Origin: Entoloma clypeatum | Taxonomy: Eukaryota > Basidiomycota > Agaricomycetes > Agaricales > Entolomataceae | Length of the DNA stretch: 64,000 nt | Direction: 5' to 3' | Assembly: GCA_963565915.1 (NCBI GenBank) | Contig: OY751492.1 | Span: 4,278,001 to 4,342,000 of the forward strand | Shown: piece by piece, positions 24,539 through 55,266 of the stretch | Numbering within the stretch: the first letter of the stretch is position 1 | How the letters are laid out: each line of letters starts with the position of its first letter | Notes under the pieces: model-generated | Told to the model about the DNA's origin: nothing | What the model saw: only the letters and a program-made list of their open reading frames with translations | Database searches by the model: none | Translations under genes and position numbers: made by a program

Positions 24539-25283
24539 CTAAATTTGTAAGACCCCCTTGGACTGTGAAGCGCTCAGATGGGCAGCGAATGTGATACGTC
24601 GGAGCACAAAATGTCTCAAGGCGAGGCCTGCGAAACGTGTGACTGGCCATAGCAAGGGCTTGGATGGGGGAAACGGCGGAGCTACTCGAAGAGAAATCGC
24701 GGAGAGTAGTAACCATACGATGAAAAGGGCCAGAACGGAGAAGTAGGTCGTGGGGCGACATCCATATTCTTCAATGATATCAAAGCGGTGGCCCTGGACC
24801 ATGATATTTGAGATGGACTTGATGTGAGCCAGATGACGAGGGGGACAAAGAGAAGTATGACATACAGAGCGGTAGACCGAAGCACATGAACATTTCGAAA
24901 ATTTGGCGGCGTCGCTTCTCGGCCATGCTGGTCTTGGCATGCCGGACAGACGCCACTTGTTCAAGGTGGATACCGATGCAAAGACAGGCAGCAGGAAGTG
25001 CCGATTTGTGCCGATGATGAGTTTGGTTGCTGGGTGAAAGGAGGTGGTAGTAAGTGTCAACACCTCTTGGATTAGAACGGATCGAACTTACTGATGTCGC
25101 ACCAGACTGGGGCAATGATTACATTGTCGCCCCATATTACCGCGTCGACGCCATAGATAACGTTGGCCAGGAAAAGCCAGAAGGCCAGCGCAAGAGTGGC
25201 TACGTTCCCTGCTCGGCAGTGCCACGGAACAACAACGAAAATTACAAAGGCTGAGATAAAGGCAACAAGGGCAAACTCGATAC
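24539..25283 (-). pseudogene. STE3-like pheromone receptor relic
   Basis: Minus-strand exons fit 25283-25092, 25029-24866 and 24817-24539. The first encodes helices 1-3 (FALVAFISAFVIFVVVPW, GNVATLALAFWLF, VIWGDN, PVWCDI). The second encodes LCIGIHLEQVASVRHAKT and KRRRQIFEMFMCFGLP. The third has VQGHRFDIIEEYGCRPTTY, a hallmark of basidiomycete STE3, then ALRHFVLRRITFAAHL and a stop before helices 6 and 7. Breaks: no in-frame ATG precedes helix 1 (an in-frame TAA lies just upstream), a frameshift near 25015 separates TKLIIG from the ALPAACLC frame, and the C-terminus is truncated. The intact STE3 at 51472-53015 is a diverged relative, not a close copy. Confidence 0.85.
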
Positions 25284-45744: not shown

Positions 45745-48700
45745 ACGCCCAGGCATGCCATACTACACGTGTCGACACTATAGAGATAGAGAATGTCAGA
45801 TATCGAGCGCCTTCCGCCACCTCGTGTATTTTGATTTTCGAATATGAGTTCTGCGACAATGCCGCGGTGAGTACCTCATTCGCTACACTGACTAAGTTCT
45901 GACGGGATGGAGAATATAGTGTCAATGCCGTACGGATAAAAGGTATGGATAATTTCGCGATCTGAGACTGCAAGCGCTCACACTATGCGAAAGAAATCGA
46001 ACTCGTGCTTGCAAAGCCCATCGGGTTGACTCGGACGTCAGCCCCAGTTTTAGAATTGCACACAGCGACAGGGACGCCCCCACCGCCAAAGCATTTCAAA
46101 CGTGGGGAAACTATCCTAAGATGGGTGTTGGAGGATAAACCAATGTGTGTCCTTCCGTTTCTCCTGCAGTGACAGGTATTTGACTTGTCGTAGTATTGAT
46201 GTACGATCAGAAGCCCGCGTTCGTCTCCTCAAGGCTCGCAATTTGTTGCCTCAAAATAAACCCACACTTGAGAGGGAATGGACGTTGTCGTTTTACGAAA
46301 TGGCTAATCGCGATCCTTCAAGTGAGCCCTTTTTCTTCTGAACTCCATTTTTTCGAGAGATGCTGATCAATCTCACTAGCTCCTTCTCTTGTTCAAACTC
46401 ACGATCCCATCATCAAGGTCTATTTTGACCATGAGGTGCGTTTCCTCGTCAGTTTCCTCGATGAACTACAAGGATCCACGTTCGTCCCCGGTTCAGGCTA
46501 CTCCCAGTCAACCTGATATTCCGGCGCCTATTGAGGCAGTCCGCCAGGCCGCAAGTACCGCACTCTCTAATATGAAGACCCTTGGTTCGCACATCCAAGG
46601 CGTTGTATCGACAGTCGACAGCACGAAAGACCAGGTTTCTTTGTTCCTCGACACACTTTCCAAGTTCAATAATCTGGTCAGCGGGTTCGCCAAGGCAAAT
46701 GTCACTCAAGTTGTAAGATGGTATTCGTGTATTGATTTAATGCTTAGATCCACCCCTATGCACAAGCTGCTTGGACTATACTCTCCGTTGCATCCAAGGT
46801 TTGATTTCCGTATGTTACACGAGACCGATGTGGTTGACACTTGATAGATGATTCTTGATCAATTGAATCGCGACAACTCAATCATTTCCCTCTTTAGAAA
46901 GATGACTGAAGTGTATGAGTTTCTTACGGGGAAAGAGTTACAGCGCATCGAGTTCATGAAGGTCGTCGTAGAGCGCATGACCAGTCAAACTCTAGAATGT
47001 GCTCGTTTCGTTCGGGACTACTCGGAAAACGAAAAGTTCCGTAAGTTGAGGTAGCATCGTAACATTACCAGTGGCGAACTCACCTTTGTTTTAAGGCACG
47101 AGATTCGTCAAAAACTTGCTGTCTGAAACGGATGACCGCGTGAAAGATTTTAATAAAACCTTCGACCAACTTATGCAAGAGTTCCGTGATGGTGCGGCGG
47201 GAGATACGTTGGTCATTGTACATCGGATCTGGGAACATCTTGAAGCGTTGCGTAAGTCTTTTTTCAATTGATTCCGATGGTGCTTTCCTGACGCCTGCAC
47301 GTTACAGCAGAGGATTTAGACCTTAACAGTATGCCCTATGCTGCCGGTGCGGGCCTCAATACCCAAAAGCTTTGTTTGAAAGGGACCCGTGCCGAAATCC
47401 TAGGCGACATCACAGACTGGATTAACGACCGCGACGAGGACACGCGTATATACTGGCTTCACGGCACCGCTGGATCCGGTAAATCTGCCATCGCCCACAC
47501 TATCGCTTACCACTTCAAAATGCTTGGTCGCCTTGGCTCTTTCTTTGCTTTTGACCGTAACGAGGTAGCGGAACAGCGCCATAAGAAAATCTTCGCAACG
47601 ATCGCACAGGACCTCGTTAATTGCGACCCAAAATTACGGAGGGCGCTGGTTACTACCATTCATCACAATACATCGCTCAGGAACACCCCCGATATTCTGC
47701 AGCAGTGGGAGGAACTCATCGTGAAACCTGCTCAGGCAATGGAGGCGACGGCAGGTCCTATTGTCATTGTCATCGACGCTTTGGATGAGAGTGGCGATGT
47801 GGAGTCGCGGCGACATATCCTTCGAATTTTGGCTGGCCACATGACGAGGCTTCCTGCCCACTTCCGCATTCTTCTGACATCACGACCACTCCCAGACATT
47901 GAAAACGCGTTCAAGGATGTCACCCATACTCGCTGGAAGGCTATGGAAACCATTGATTCAACAGAAAGCGACATTCTGCGCTATATTTCCAATCAGCTAT
48001 CGGTGGTAGAGCTGGGGACCGCTCGAGTGCAGGAATTCGCTGGTCCTCTTGCGCACAAATCTGGATTTCTGTTCGAGTGGGCACGGTTGGCATGTGCATA
48101 TGTGAACGGGGAGAACGACGCAGGGATAGGATTTACTGCAGAGGAGCGTTTCTTGACCATCATCAATCGCAACAAAGACGTTCCGCTGCTTGACGACATG
48201 TACAGCTTCACTCTGCACACGATGTTCCCGCCACAGCAACGCCAACGCGAGATTCGTATTGGCCGCTTCAAGTCGGTTATGGCCCAGATACTCGGAACTA
48301 TTCACCCACTTCCTCTTGCCTCATTAGTATCGATGAGGCACCGCTTTTCTGACGATTCAGATGTTGATCTTTGCTCCATCGTGATCCCCATGGGTGCTCT
48401 CCTCAGCGGGACCACTGATTCTTCAATCCCTATACGCGCCCTCCATGCATCCTTTCCCGATTTCCTAACTGAACGCGATAGGAGCGGCGAGTACTTCATC
48501 GACGTGTCTGCCAAAGTACAGAAAAATCTAGCCTTGTCCTGCCTTGGAGTGATGAAGAACGGGCTGCGATTCAATATCTGCCAACTGCCGAGTTCCTACC
48601 CCCCTAATTCCAAAGTCCCCGATCTCGACGTTCGTGTCAAAGAACGTATCTCCCCGGAACTGGCATATTCATGTCGATTTTGGACCGTCCACGTGTGTAA

Positions 48701-49916
48701 CACACCCTTCAATGTGTCCATTGCAAACTCCGTTCGTGAGTTGTTCAGTGGAAAGGAACTGTTGTTCTGGTTTGAAGCGCTCAGCCTCCTCAAGTCCATT
48801 AATACATGCGCTGGGTCACTGTCGTCTCTCATTCAGTGGATCATGGTATGTCAACCCGTTTGTTTTTCATATGTCTTCTAAGGTATACTAGCCCCACGAA
48901 GAATGTAAAGGAATCGTGGACGATGCAGCAGATGCACAAAGATTTCTTCGACTATTTAGCGGCATTATTGCATTCAGTACCCCCCATCTATACCTCTCCG
49001 CACTACCTTTTTCGCCCAAGACTTCCCATATCTCGATGATGTTGGCAGACAAGTCTTGTCGTTCTGCAAAGATCATTTCGGCCCACAACATAACATGGCC
49101 GGTGGTGCAAGGAGAGCTACGTGGTCATTCTAGTGGTGTGTGTGCTGTTGCATTCTCGCCAGATGGCAAGCGCATAGTGTCGGGGTCGTATGACGAGACA
49201 ATCCGATTGTGGGATGCTGAGACCGGAGAGCCGCTGCGAGCACCTCTGGAGGGACATAACGGTGGGGTCAGCTTTGTTGCATTCTCGCCAGATGGCAAGC
49301 GCATCGTGTCGGGGTCTGATGACAAGACAATCCGATTGTGAGATGCCAAGACGGGAGAGTCGCTGGGAGCACCTCTGGAGGGACACCAGGGCCGGGTCAC
49401 GTCTGTTGCATTCTCGCCAGACGGCAAGCGCCTCGTGTCGGGGTCTGATGACAAGACAATCCGATTGTGGGATGCCGAGACGGGAGAGCCGCTGCGAGCA
49501 CCTCTGGAGGGACATCAGGATGTGGTCAGGTCTGTTGCATTCTCGCCAGACGGCAAACGCATCGTGTCGGGGTCTGATGACAAGACAATCCGATTGTGGG
49601 ACGCGGAGATGGGAGAGTCGCTGCGAGCACCTCTGGAGGGACATCAGGATTGGGTCTGGTCTGTTGCATTCTCTCCAGACGGCAAGCGCATCGTGTCGGG
49701 GTCGTATGACAGGACAATCCGATTGTGGGATGCCGAGACGGGAGAGCCGCTGGGAACACCTCTGGAGGGACATCAGGGTTGGGTCTTGTCTGTTGCATTC
49801 TCGCCAGACGGGAAGCGCATCGTGTCGGGGTCGACTGACAACGCCATTCGGTTATTTGACCTGAACACCAAAGTAAGTTCCTTTCGCAAAACTATTCAAT
49901 CAATTTTGAATGCATA
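45745..49916 (+). pseudogene. NACHT-WD40 NLR-like protein (NWD), one nonsense codon
   Basis: A fungal NOD-like receptor. The 5' exons (45745-46440) encode a short beta-rich region (TIEIENVRYRAPSATSCILI; EIELVLAKPIGL). Helical exons with IEAVRQAASTALSNMK and LDQLNRDNSIISLFRKM follow. From about 47311 a NACHT domain has Walker A GTAGSGKSAIAHT, Walker B IVIVIDALDE and sensor RILLTSRPLP; a long helical arm ends at 48845. After an intron (48846-48891) the frame has [13 protein letters not shown] and six WD40 repeats to 49916. Such proteins act in non-self recognition and programmed cell death. An in-frame TGA at 49339-49341 replaces the Trp of a LWD motif in repeat 2 and would cut off four repeats. 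Everything else looks intact, so the damage may be recent, an allele or a sequencing error. The N-terminal start is not resolved. Confidence 0.8.
49120..49870 (+). repeat. Six near-identical 129-bp WD40 repeats
   Basis: Each 43-codon unit reads GH-x3-V-x2-VAFSPDGKR, then VSGS, then [11 protein letters not shown], with very high DNA identity. Differences cluster at the residues just after GH and after V (SSGVCA, NGGVSF, QGRVTS, QDVVRS, QDWVWS, QGWVLS). The reverse strand stays open for 218 codons, but that is only a shadow of the repeat. Confidence 0.9.
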
Positions 49917-50662: not shown

Positions 50663-50821
50663 TCAGGCGATCACGCAGTATCCCCCATAACCAGCTTGGG
50701 CGTCGGCGTTGATTAGCTCCTGCATGATGTCGCCCCGACTGCGGGGTTCAGTGGCGAAGATGGTGACATCGGATTCGACGTCGGTGAGCATTGGTAGTTC
50801 GATGGTGCTCAAGGTGTCCAT
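50663..50821 (-). CDS. Mating pheromone precursor 1 (CaaX CVIA)
   Basis: A 52-aa, intronless frame starts MDTLSTIEL and ends GYGGYCVIA followed by TGA. The C-terminal Cys-Val-Ile-Ala is a CaaX box for farnesylation, proteolysis and carboxymethylation. The acidic N-terminal pro-region and the short hydrophobic/Gly-rich C-terminus are typical of basidiomycete lipopeptide pheromones; the mature peptide would be roughly the last 12-14 residues before processing. ATG 50821 is preferred because longer upstream frames have no such pattern. It lies about 650 bp upstream of and divergent from the STE3 gene, as expected in a B mating locus. Confidence 0.85.
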   Translation of the reverse strand: MDTLSTIELPMLTDVESDVTIFATEPRSRGDIMQELINADAQAGYGGYCVIA

Positions 50822-50939
50822 TCTGGATGTGTGATTGGAGAGGATGACGGTGTGCGGAGATATAGAGGATGTGCAGAAGCGTGAAAGGTTGAACGTGGAG
50901 CGGCAAAGGTGAGCACTTGGGCGACGATATGGAAGCACA

Positions 50940-51471
50940 CCTAGGTATTTAAGCTATGTGTGCAAGGACAATGGGGTGATGGGGCCATTGTCTAAAAAAG
51001 CCAAAGGCCCATTTTTTGCACACAGACGGTGGTACCCCGTGACACGAGGGTGGATATCGAGATGTGGAGAGGGTTAGTGCGTCCCTCTTCAATCCGCTGA
51101 TTCTTTGGATCTTGAAGCACCGAGACGCGAGAACGATGGCCGACTCGTCAATGTGCTATTGATTCCGACGGGGTGGGGATAGCTTTTCAGAGGCGCGTTG
51201 TACATTCTATATAAAAAGTCACCGTTGCACATTTTCAGCTGGACGTTCTGTCGATAAGTAGAAGACTTATAAGTATTTGCGGTGGTGGGCAGTGTCGGCG
51301 CATTACATAAGTCTCTGAAAGAGGATGTCACACTGGTGTCACACCCATTGTCCCCGTTACACAACAAAGGGCTTTTGTCGACCTCATAAAGCCGGAAATG
51401 ATGAGCCTACGTTTCCTCCCCCTTACCTCTACCTCTCCTCCGGGCCACCCTTTTCCAACAACTCCGCCTCG
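50940..51471. promoter_or_regulatory. Shared upstream region of pheromone 1 and STE3
   Basis: The space between two divergently transcribed mating genes. It holds the TATA-like TTCTATATAAAA near 51208 and an ACAATGGGG motif near 50970. ACAAAGGGC at 51365 resembles the ACAAAGGG element bound by HMG-box regulators of fungal pheromone response, but this is a visual match only. Confidence 0.35.
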
Positions 51472-53015
51472 ATGTACGACCCAACTTACCCTCTTTTCCC
51501 CATTTTCGCCTTCACTGGATTCGTCCTCGTCTTGATACCTCTTCCTTGGCATCTCCATGCTTGGAACTCTGGGACATGTTTCTACATGATGTGGGCCGCT
51601 TTGGCGTGCTTGAATCAGGGCGTCAACTCTGTCGTCTGGGCCAACGACGTGATAGATCGGGCGCCGATATGGTGTGATATCTGTGAGATTGCTTTCTTTC
51701 TCCTCGTCTAGCCGACGTTCTCAAGAAAATTCTTTTATAGCGATACGGATCACGATGGCAGCAGCAATCGGCCTTCCAGCCGCGTCGCTTTGCATCAATA
51801 GACGACTCTATCACATCACGACTGTCCAAGCGGTCACCATTTCACACGCGGAGGTCGGTCATCCCTTTTGACGTATCTTTGTCTTTTCTGATATTGTTCG
51901 TTTGCTAGAGAGTCCGCGCCATACTGATAGACACGCTGATTTGTGTCGCTTTCCCACTTCTATGCGTCGGTCTTCGTGAGTTCACCCATGCCCTCTGCTC
52001 GTCAAGCCCGTAACTTACAGTGCTTCGCAGAATATATCGTTCAAGGCCATCGTTTCAATATCTATGAGGGCGTTGGTTGTTTCCCAGCCTTGTATAATAC
52101 ACTCCTTACCTACTTCCTATCGGGCATTTGGCCCATCGTCATCGGCATGATATCTGCCGTCTATTGTAGTAAGTTGTTTTCTCTCTCTTTCTCAGTCCTT
52201 TCTGACTCTTTACAGCACTCTCCATTCGCTCGTTCCTCCGTCGTCGCATACAATTCGGCCAATTCCTCGCCTCCAGCAAATCGTCACTCACCATGAGTCG
52301 CTACTTCCGCCTCATGGGCCTGGCGCTGTCCGACATCCTATGTACCACCCCTCCCGCGATATTCGCCATATGGCTCAACGCGCACGTCAACACAGTTGGT
52401 CCTTGGCGCAGCTGGGCCGATACCCACCTCGATTACTGGCGCGTGGAGCAGTACCCGGCTGTCCTCTGGCGCGCGAACAGGCTCGCGGTCATCAGCTTGT
52501 CGTTCACGCAGTGGGTGACCCCCGCGTGCGCCTTGATATTCTTCGCTTTCTTCGGGTTCGCGGACGAGGCGAAGAGGAACTACCGCGCGGCGTTCTGGTG
52601 GCTCGTCAAACCACTCGGTCTGAGGCCTCCTCCTACCGGTGGCAAGTCCTCTGCTGTCCCATCGATTGGGTAAGCAGCTTTCTCCATCCCTTCCAATTCA
52701 GTTTGTGCTCATGCTCATCCTTGTTAACTCAGGCAATTCAAAGTCAAACCTACTCCCCTCTCATCGCTCGACGGATCTCTTCCTCCGTATTCTCCACCCG
52801 CCTCGTCATTTTCAATCCTTCACGACAAGAAACAGCAAGATTCTTTGAGAGACTCTTTGACGCATGTTGACGATGCTATGTCTACCTCATGTTCTCATTA
52901 CTGCAATTCCCCATTTTCCTCGCCATCAACTGATACGTTCACCATACATACCACGTCTTCTGGGCTTGACCCTTTTCGATCACCTGACTCTGTAAAACTA
53001 GACTCCACCGTTTGA
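51472..53015 (+). CDS. STE3: Pheromone receptor of STE3 type (B mating type), intact
   Basis: Six exons (51472-51682, 51741-51853, 51909-51975, 52031-52168, 52216-52669, 52733-53015) give 1,266 nt, 421 aa, without a stop. Seven helices can be traced: LFPIFAFTGFVLVLIPLPW, FYMMWAALACLNQGVN, WCDI with AAAIGLPAASLCINRRLYHI, LIDTLICVAFPLLCVGL, YNTLLTYFLSGIWPIVIGM, YFRLMGLALSDILCTTPPAI, and VTPACALIFFAFFGF. The hallmark YIVQGHRFNIYEGVGCFPALYNT lies between helices 4 and 5. A Ser/Thr-rich cytoplasmic tail follows. The protein is a plasma-membrane GPCR that senses non-self pheromone and signals through a G protein and a MAP kinase cascade. At the fourth junction the acceptor at 52030 is chosen over 52020 because only it keeps the conserved QYIVQGHRF frame. 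Confidence 0.92.
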
Positions 53016-53788
53016 GTAGCTCACGAACTGTATTCTTTACATTAGCACAAGTTGATTCATTTCAGGTGAAATGAATAATGCACGAGTGTTTTGCCATTGT
53101 ACATTGCCTTCGTCTTGCTCGTCTTCTAATATCAATCAATTTGATTGGGGACTCCGAGTCAGAACTAGTTTTCAAATACGAAATTGGACGCTTGGTTTTC
53201 ACTGCGTAGGAATTAGACACCTCGGGGACACTGGACGGTCGTTCTGGCGTGTGCTTTTGAACCTTACCATACTTTCGGTGCACAAGACAATAGCGCTCAT
53301 GGAGCGAGGGGGGCGCTCGCGCTGACGTGTACTTGGATGTGATGTTTATTGCGTATGAGTCACAGTCAAGGGGGATAATATCATGTTCATTTATTGCATG
53401 TCAAATACAAAAGTGCATAAATATTGGTATGTTAGAACATTGTAAGACTCGAGAAGATCGAAAACTGGAATAATGATAATGAGCAATGAGTGGCGTGTGG
53501 GGCGTGGTTATGGCTACAGCTGGATGTTAAGGAAAGTATGCAACCCTTGCAAAGGGTGCTGGATAAATGTACAGTTGTACGGTAGAATGGTGGCTGTGAT
53601 GGAGGAGGGTGAGAAGACGTTCGGCTGCTGACGCGAACGGACGAGGGCACGTACTGAGTGTAAAGTAGGCATCTATCAGCGAGTCTTGAATTGGGAATCG
53701 AAACGATGCGGGGTCTGGGGAAGGAAAGATAGTTGTGGCTGGGTGACGGCTATGATGTTAAAAGGCGTACTATGGAAGTAGTAAAAGC
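53016..53788. other. Intergenic within the mating locus
   Basis: The 3' region of STE3 followed by sequence with no convincing gene. Minus frame 53650-53432 is Ser/Pro-rich without a domain. It probably includes the 3' UTR of pheromone gene 2. Confidence 0.5.
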
Positions 53789-53950
53789 CTATGCGATGAC
53801 ACAGAAGCCGACGACGAGGCCTGACCCGGATTGTTCCTCGTCAACGAGCGGCTTCTCATCAATGGTAGGTGATGTGTTTCCAGGCGAAGACAGAATGGCC
53901 GAGAGGTCGCCAGAGTCTGTGAAAGCGTCGAGAGTTGTGAAAGCGTCCAT
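53789..53950 (-). CDS. Mating pheromone precursor 2 (CaaX CVIA)
   Basis: A 53-aa intronless frame begins MDAFTTLDAFTDSGDLSAIL and ends SGLVVGFCVIA, then TAG. It has the same plan as precursor 1: an acidic pro-region with many Ser/Asp, then a short hydrophobic peptide and a CVIA CaaX box. An acidic DEEQ stretch about 12 residues before the Cys is a plausible processing point. The N-terminal MD-x3-TL/I resemblance to precursor 1 is modest, so the two would be different specificities rather than recent duplicates. It lies 770 bp downstream of the STE3 stop, on the opposite strand. It is easily missed because it is short. Confidence 0.82.
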   Translation of the reverse strand: MDAFTTLDAFTDSGDLSAILSSPGNTSPTIDEKPLVDEEQSGSGLVVGFCVIA

Positions 53951-55266
53951 TGTGGTTGGTAGTTATGAGTTGCGAGAGGGTTGTTTAGTGCAAAAAGGCT
54001 GGGAGAGCAATTTGGCTGTTTGTTGTGCAGATATGAGGGGCGTCGCAAGGTTAACTTGAAGGACCCTGGGGATATGTGCCCAACTAAATAGTCCTGTGAG
54101 AGGCCATACGCGCCATTGTTCACCGCCGCGGACAAAGGACAATGGGCCATGTGTCGAGATACTTATTTTGGGAGAAGGCCATCGTTCGGCAACCATTGTC
54201 ATGGAATGCGTGACAAAGTCACGATTGTGACAACAATAACCCAGCCGCATTTGGAATGCCATCTCTTGCGCTTGCGGATTATGAAGTCCTGTACAGTCTC
54301 ATCGGAATCGACGACAAGGCCCCCAGTGGACCACCGGAAATGTTGGGACAATGATGGCTACGCCGGGCGGCGTCAGAACTTACATGGTCATCCAGAGACC
54401 TTTGCGGTAATTTAAAGGGATCGCTAGAAGTCTTAGGTGAAGTCTTTTACATTTTATATCAATACTTGGAAAAACTCCTCGCCAGATACTGCATCATCGC
54501 CCAACACACACCAGAGCCTCTACGCCGTTACCTACCTGCAGGTCGGACGCGCCACGTCCCCTTGGGTGTTGACGCTGTTTCTGAGCGGACTTCGTGTGGC
54601 ACGTTCCAGTTAAGAGACTCGGCAGTAATCGACTATGAACTGCGTGGTGTCCACTGTCCACCATCCGAGTCTGGCAGGTTTCTCTTCTCCCTCTGTATCG
54701 ATTGCCTGTCCTTGAGGCCATTGTTCTAGAAGGCCTGAGCCGTCGCGTCCGTAGCGTCCGGATATGTCTTCACCGCCCACTGTCACCTTGTATGGTCACA
54801 CCTTTCTCTGCCGGCATTTCTTGGACCTGCGTTTCTCGTGTCTACATGCGTTCAGTTATTGCCTTGTGCAGAGATTGATGAGATTCACAGTTGAGCCACG
54901 CCGTACTTTTTCTTCAGCAATGTTATAATGAACCATCCATCAACTTGATCAGCATCCCGCACAAACGGTGGGATACGAGGCCGTCATTCATGGAACAGTC
55001 CAGAATGCTGGCCTGTTGCGAGCTGCCTCTCGTGGTCGAATGAATGTCAACCAATTGGGGCCTTGGACCCTACGTTGTAAAGTGTTTCCCCTTTGTAAAT
55101 GACATTCAATACATATTTAGCATGGTACTGTCCTAATAATCCCTTTTCATGACGCATACAATCAAGCAACAAAAAGCGTCAACGTATTCGATCAATCAGG
55201 CTTGCCTCCCTCAATTCTGGATAACATGGCCTGAGCGCCTCCAAGATCAGCATTGTCGCCGCGTTA
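53951..55266. other. Intergenic, no gene recognised
   Basis: ACAATGG/CCATTGT words recur (54138, 54204), which could be HMG-type sites upstream of pheromone 2. The short plus frame 54466-54729 contains CIIA internally but is not a CaaX protein. Nothing else was seen. Confidence 0.4.

Follow-up and report, generated by a model that had tools for sequence, protein, structure and literature searches.

Receptor and precursor genes of the module

The window, by which we mean the whole stretch of 64,000 nucleotides that was analysed, spans bases 4278001-4342000 of scaffold C11 of Entoloma clypeatum, whose genome assembly comprises 60.08 Mb in 20 scaffolds. It contains an STE3 pheromone receptor gene on the plus strand at 51472-53015 (positions without a scaffold name are those of the window), flanked by two short pheromone precursor genes on the minus strand, gene A at 50663-50821 and gene B at 53789-53950. 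Gene A and STE3 are divergent and share a 650-bp control region (50822-51471), and gene B lies tail to tail with STE3. The receptor gene was modelled from the sequence alone, with splice sites picked by GT/AG ends and similarity, and has six exons (51472-51682, 51741-51853, 51909-51975, 52031-52168, 52216-52669 and 52733-53015) separated by five introns of 47-63 bp, all five with GT/AG ends. An initial annotation of this DNA had placed a six-exon STE3 gene here, and the interval indeed proved spliceable into a predicted protein of 421 amino acids with no internal stop. The HMMER comparison with PF02076 that this annotation had proposed gave a match over the full profile (positions 1-292 of 292, 353.4 bits, cut-off 29.2). 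A search for homologues returned 1104 proteins at E<=0.001 among 7274 candidates; in the best 120 of these 1104, the top matches came from Collybia nuda (70% identity) and Hypsizygus (68%).

Both minus-strand frames ending in CVIA were present at exactly the coordinates annotated. Gene A is an open frame of 52 amino acids that ends in AGYGGYCVIA, and gene B is one of 53 amino acids that ends in EEQSGSGLVVGFCVIA (SGLVVGFCVIA). The two pheromone ends differ, as had been reported (AGYGGY for gene A and SGLVVGF for gene B), and as read from their sequences these ends would fit two separate specificities. Membership of the fungal pheromone family PF08015, also put forward for both precursors, held for gene B (35.5 bits, above the cut-off of 22) but not for gene A, which scored just below that cut-off (20.8 bits, E 8.7e-4). 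The N-terminus of gene B, MDAF, fits the pattern MD..F, and that of gene A, MDTL, lacks the F. A charged dipeptide is looked for 10-15 residues before the C-terminus; gene B carries EE ahead of QSGSGLVVGFCVIA, and in gene A the acidic residues stand singly (QELINADAQAGYGGYCVIA), so that it lacks a canonical ER/EH pair as processing site. The annotation had interpreted the interval as a B-type (P/R) mating-type module, and its gene content, protein families, CaaX ends, tight linkage and flanking geometry all fit that interpretation.

A second module on the same scaffold

A search of the genome with PF02076 yielded at least 11 matches, which fall into three genes, all on scaffold C11. One is the receptor described above. 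Another is a second STE3 gene on the minus strand at C11:4117025-4118809, with a six-exon splice model of 507 amino acids, accompanied by two CVIA precursor genes: one at C11:4119131-4119298 (55 amino acids, PF08015 22.6 bits), from which the receptor gene is divergent across a 321-bp region, and one at C11:4120188-4120340 (50 amino acids, 23.6 bits) that carries a classical EREH. The third, at 24560-25266 on the minus strand of the window, is a degenerate STE3-like gene, with receptor fragments spread over more than one frame and coverage of the PF02076 profile only to about position 192; there was no CVIA frame nearby, and no copy of ACAATGG, the promoter word considered below, in the 700 bp tested. 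The starts of the two intact receptor genes are 210,663 bp (about 211 kb) apart. A gap of 200 Ns (C11:4272480-4272679) lies between the modules, whose spacing and phase therefore rest on scaffolding.

The two intact receptors share 44% identity. We built a tree of 51 rows, consisting of both receptors and 49 proteins picked by name from 237 homologues (the best 120 per receptor, with overlap), in which two clades at 100/100 support separate the two receptors. The clade of the receptor at 51472-53015 includes Hypsizygus STE3.2 and B alpha 3, a Collybia nuda protein, Rcb2 B44 of Coprinopsis and Bar3 of Schizophyllum; that of the second receptor includes Hypsizygus B alpha 2 and Bbr2 of Schizophyllum. 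Both clades are represented in 14 genera. Taking the best matches of either receptor as rows favours two groups, but this choice does not explain why both clades occur in 14 genera. Receptor genes are trans-specific.

The assembly may be dikaryotic, with two nuclei mixed, and the two modules could then be alleles from the two nuclei that were misplaced in tandem on one scaffold. The gap between them would allow this, and alleles of one receptor can differ as much as these two receptors do. The assignment of the receptors to two clades that are both present in 14 genera argues against it, however, as does the absence of any DNA match between the two modules or their flanks at E 1e-3, which means that neither is a copied haplotype block. 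We consider misplaced alleles very unlikely and treat the modules as two subloci.

We also weighed the possibility that the gene at 51472-53015 encodes a non-mating STE3-like receptor whose position next to short CaaX frames is accidental. In the sections of the literature that we cite, B loci commonly have non-mating STE3-like genes nearby (PMC8161036, PMC5100862), but such receptors are described there as lacking neighbouring pheromone genes, and here there are two, of which gene B scores well above the PF08015 cut-off. The receptor, moreover, clusters with Bar3 and Rcb2. CVIA followed by TRR occurs at 34 sites in the 60-Mb genome, so that about 0.004 sites would be expected in two 3.3-kb modules; four were found, one pair per STE3 gene, which makes a chance origin of these frames unlikely. 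Of the 34 sites, the four P/R sites and 20 others were inspected; the remaining ten comprise three that end in TGG and seven that belong to a repeated word. In a looser CaaX scan of 260 kb, 17 frames of 20-110 amino acids were found, and only four ended in CVIA, two beside each intact STE3 gene. Together, these data make a non-mating receptor beside chance frames extremely improbable and argue for a pheromone and receptor module. Among the other sites, a cluster on C14, in which four CVIA words are spaced 129 bp from one another, was rejected, as its frames have no start codon and sit within repeats whose period and appearance are those of WD40 repeats read from the opposite strand. A scan for TGTGTTATYGCTTGA (14 sites in total) revealed a precursor-like frame at none of the seven sites inspected.

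The interval between the modules is rich in repeats. Its right-hand part, positions 1-50600 of the window, contains pieces of Helitron, RT/RNase H, hAT, copia-type and Plavaka elements and a NACHT/WD40 gene. Repeats of at least 300 bp, as found within the 260-kb stretch, cover 41% of this 208-kb interval; by the same measure they cover 0% of the 17 kb flanking the first module and 4.8% of the 28 kb flanking the second on its outer side, both flanks being short. CpG observed/expected ratios fall to 0.55 in parts of the interval and are near 0.97 outside. The repeat-rich and partly CpG-depleted block (C11:4120400-4328600) is thus bounded by the two modules. The NACHT (NPHP3_N) and WD40-repeat gene, at 47292-49914, adjoins the module in the window, and its 129-bp repeats are nearly identical. 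In Agaricus bisporus, according to the cited section of PMC8305134, a centromeric repeat island is bordered on either end by pheromone-like genes. The one interval repeat that we tested here gave no support for a centromere, because it is not confined to one place per scaffold; the 40 scored of 1367 candidates lay on many scaffolds, with several on each. Matches to PBD, used as the PAK/CLA4 synteny marker, were present on C6, C11 (3.39 Mb), C12 and C15, and none of these adjoins the modules; the nearest on C11 is about 725 kb from the second module.

On scaffold C12, a Peptidase_M3 gene (3284648-3286148) has two Homeobox_KN genes next to it (C12:3275807 and 3280351), and by their domains the three would be the HD and MIP genes, as expected. 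The P/R modules on C11 and the HD locus on C12 are unlinked at the scaffold level, and since the HD locus is on another scaffold than the two P/R subloci, the layout of the genome is tetrapolar.

In Schizophyllum commune (B alpha and B beta) and Coprinopsis cinerea (the Rcb groups), Bar3 and Rcb2 B44 share a clade with the receptor in the window and Bbr2 shares one with the second. The pheromone numbers and spacing known from these two systems, as far as their descriptions go, are unlike those here. In Flammulina velutipes, PR-a and PR-b lie 177-181 kb apart (PMC3140503, PMC5100862), so a wide spacing of P/R subloci is already known. As far as the cited sections go, that species also carries its two P/R subloci on a single chromosome, with one or two pheromone genes belonging to each receptor, and has STE3-like genes linked to the subloci; the locus described here differs in its 211-kb spacing, in having two pheromones at each sublocus, and in the degenerate STE3 gene and the repeat-rich interval between the subloci. 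Hypsizygus marmoreus supplied the closest receptors among the best 120 matches (STE3.2 and B alpha 3 for the module in the window, B alpha 2 for the second). The relevant part of PMC8686365 describes, as here, a five-intron receptor, pheromones that flank a receptor and CVIA ends. The H. marmoreus locus, however, holds three receptors, three pheromones and two receptor-like genes within 22 kb (PMC8686365), in contrast to two modules 211 kb apart. We infer that a compact locus like the 22-kb one of Hypsizygus may have been pushed apart by repeats.

A promoter word and its sister word

Upstream of the pheromone and receptor genes we noticed by eye the word ACAATGG, which was afterwards counted exhaustively. 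On either strand (ACAATGG/CCATTGT) it occurs three times between the divergent gene A and STE3 (at 50968, 50985 and 51345) and three times in the region upstream of gene B (53951-54250, minus strand; at 54113, 54139 and 54193). The regions counted were those 50-300 bp upstream of the six P/R genes of both modules, 1279 bases in union, and they hold ten of the 66 copies of the word in 260 kb (binomial 1.4e-12). Of 8204 canonical seven-base words counted, ACAATGG ranked first among those with at least three copies in the regions. When the mask of regions was shifted, at most four copies fell within it at any of 19847 positions, compared with the ten observed. All six P/R genes have at least one copy 127-250 bp upstream, although, because intergenic regions are shared, the six genes amount to four independent regions. 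Recent copying does not explain the word, since the P/R upstream regions barely align (non-overlapping ones over 36 bp at most, at 81%). There are 20 occurrences in the window, chance copies included; those at 53094 and 54718 lie outside the counted upstream regions, and the word also coincides with start codons at 53947 and at one HD1 gene.

The HD genes provided test data that had played no part in finding the word. A copy lies between each of the two divergent HD1/HD2 pairs (C12:3275273 and 3279893), inside a 20-base stretch that is identical in both. There is thus one copy in each HD intergenic region (two of two; chance 0.0011), these regions measuring about 166 and 105 bp as judged from inferred start codons. 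In smuts, the element ACAAAGGGA is the pheromone response element and is bound by the HMG-box factor Prf1 (PMC3248468, in the part cited). The word in E. clypeatum resembles it, as set out there, in that a short word of the form ACAAxGG precedes pheromone and receptor genes, here lying also between HD genes, and differs in that T replaces the A of the smut consensus. These results suggest that ACAATGG is a putative HMG-type mating promoter element, an assignment made from sequence. The genome has 14 HMG_box matches, none of which was tied to the word. Judged by titles, the open-licence literature searched held no report of ACAATGG in mushrooms, only work on response elements in smuts and Cryptococcus.

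The promoter word bears on whether the module has lost its mating-type role, as has happened in bipolar mushrooms, where the genes are kept and do not differ between mating types; such modules are described for Volvariella volvacea and A. bisporus in the cited portions of PMC4938666 and PMC8305134. Here, however, the receptor and precursors look intact, ACAATGG is retained at all six P/R genes and a second intact module is present. We regard a lost role as unlikely and favour a module that acts in mating.

Pattern and protein searches revealed pheromone-like genes outside the P/R locus. These are at C8:4456741-4456929 (62 amino acids, two repeats ending in YCVVC and YCVVA), C10:1366558-1366737 (59 amino acids, two repeats), C12:1132920-1133030 (36 amino acids, one repeat) and C9:827626-827805 (59 amino acids, PF08015 25.3 bits), with a degenerate gene ending in CVVRA near C12:1131.3 kb. 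The pattern searches covered eight of nine sites matching [FY]CV[IVM]A followed by TRR (all but C9:116950) and, for a further pattern, seven of eight (all but C1:3241464). The C9 site, at C9:116950-116967, is an FCVVA-stop. The outside genes share the core GG[ST]GTGAYC, which resembles the non-mating pheromone-like peptides GGGSGNGAYC of C. cinerea and GGGSGNNAYC of Laccaria bicolor given in the cited part of PMC8305134; genes of this kind are therefore already known. Among 22 relatives at E<=1, 11 carry the peptide twice (including those of Tricholomella constricta and Tricholoma matsutake) and 11 carry it once.

None of the five 700-bp regions upstream of these outside genes contains ACAATGG. 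All five contain ACAATAAG, which is found in none of the six P/R regions. In an exhaustive count, ACAATAA was the top word upstream of the four intact outside genes, with 11 copies (Poisson 7e-15 over 700 bp). When intergenic regions are taken as the units, ACAATGG occurs in six of six MAT regions and in none of the five others (Fisher 0.0022). The sister word is based on five genes, which are partly paralogues and include the degenerate one, and one copy is 655 bp upstream. Our tentative proposal, to which we give a little under an even chance, is that ACAATGG marks both MAT loci (the six P/R genes and both HD pairs) and that the outside genes use ACAATAAG, so that two HMG-type codes would separate mating signalling from a second lipopeptide system that includes two-copy precursors.

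A probable two-part B locus

Positions 50663-53950 of the window very probably constitute one Bar/Rcb2-like sublocus of an agaric B (P/R) mating-type locus. The second module, the grouping of the receptor with established mating receptors, the unlinked HD locus and the common promoter word lend further support to a mating-type role. The module by itself is not the whole B locus but one of two, and the arrangement is consistent with a tetrapolar B locus whose two subloci lie far apart, as they do in F. velutipes.

From the gene content, layout, clade and promoter word, all of which the sequence shows, we infer how processing, specificity, signalling and regulation might proceed. The precursors encoded by genes A and B would be cut near a charged pair or an acidic residue, and the cysteine of CVIA would be farnesylated to give secreted lipopeptides. 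STE3 is predicted to act as a seven-transmembrane receptor. It is an established rule for P/R modules that a module's own pheromones do not activate the neighbouring receptor; in a haploid strain, this receptor would accordingly be silent to its own two pheromones and would answer those of other alleles of the same sublocus. Its activation would engage the G-protein and MAPK B pathway, leading to nuclear migration and clamp fusion. A second, Bbr-like sublocus with its own receptor and two pheromones would operate 211 kb away, across the repeat-rich block. ACAATGG, upstream of the P/R and HD genes, probably serves a Prf1-type HMG-box regulator.

The locus is a clear agaric case of widely separated B subloci, and the distribution of repeats, which are frequent between the modules and few outside, bears on how compact P/R loci come apart. 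The module itself is of an ordinary kind, and what merits following up is the promoter word together with its sister word. If true, the promoter word would offer a sequence test for pheromone and receptor genes under mating control, which the precursors, being short and quick to change in sequence, do not provide, and it would connect mushrooms with the Prf1-type control of smuts.
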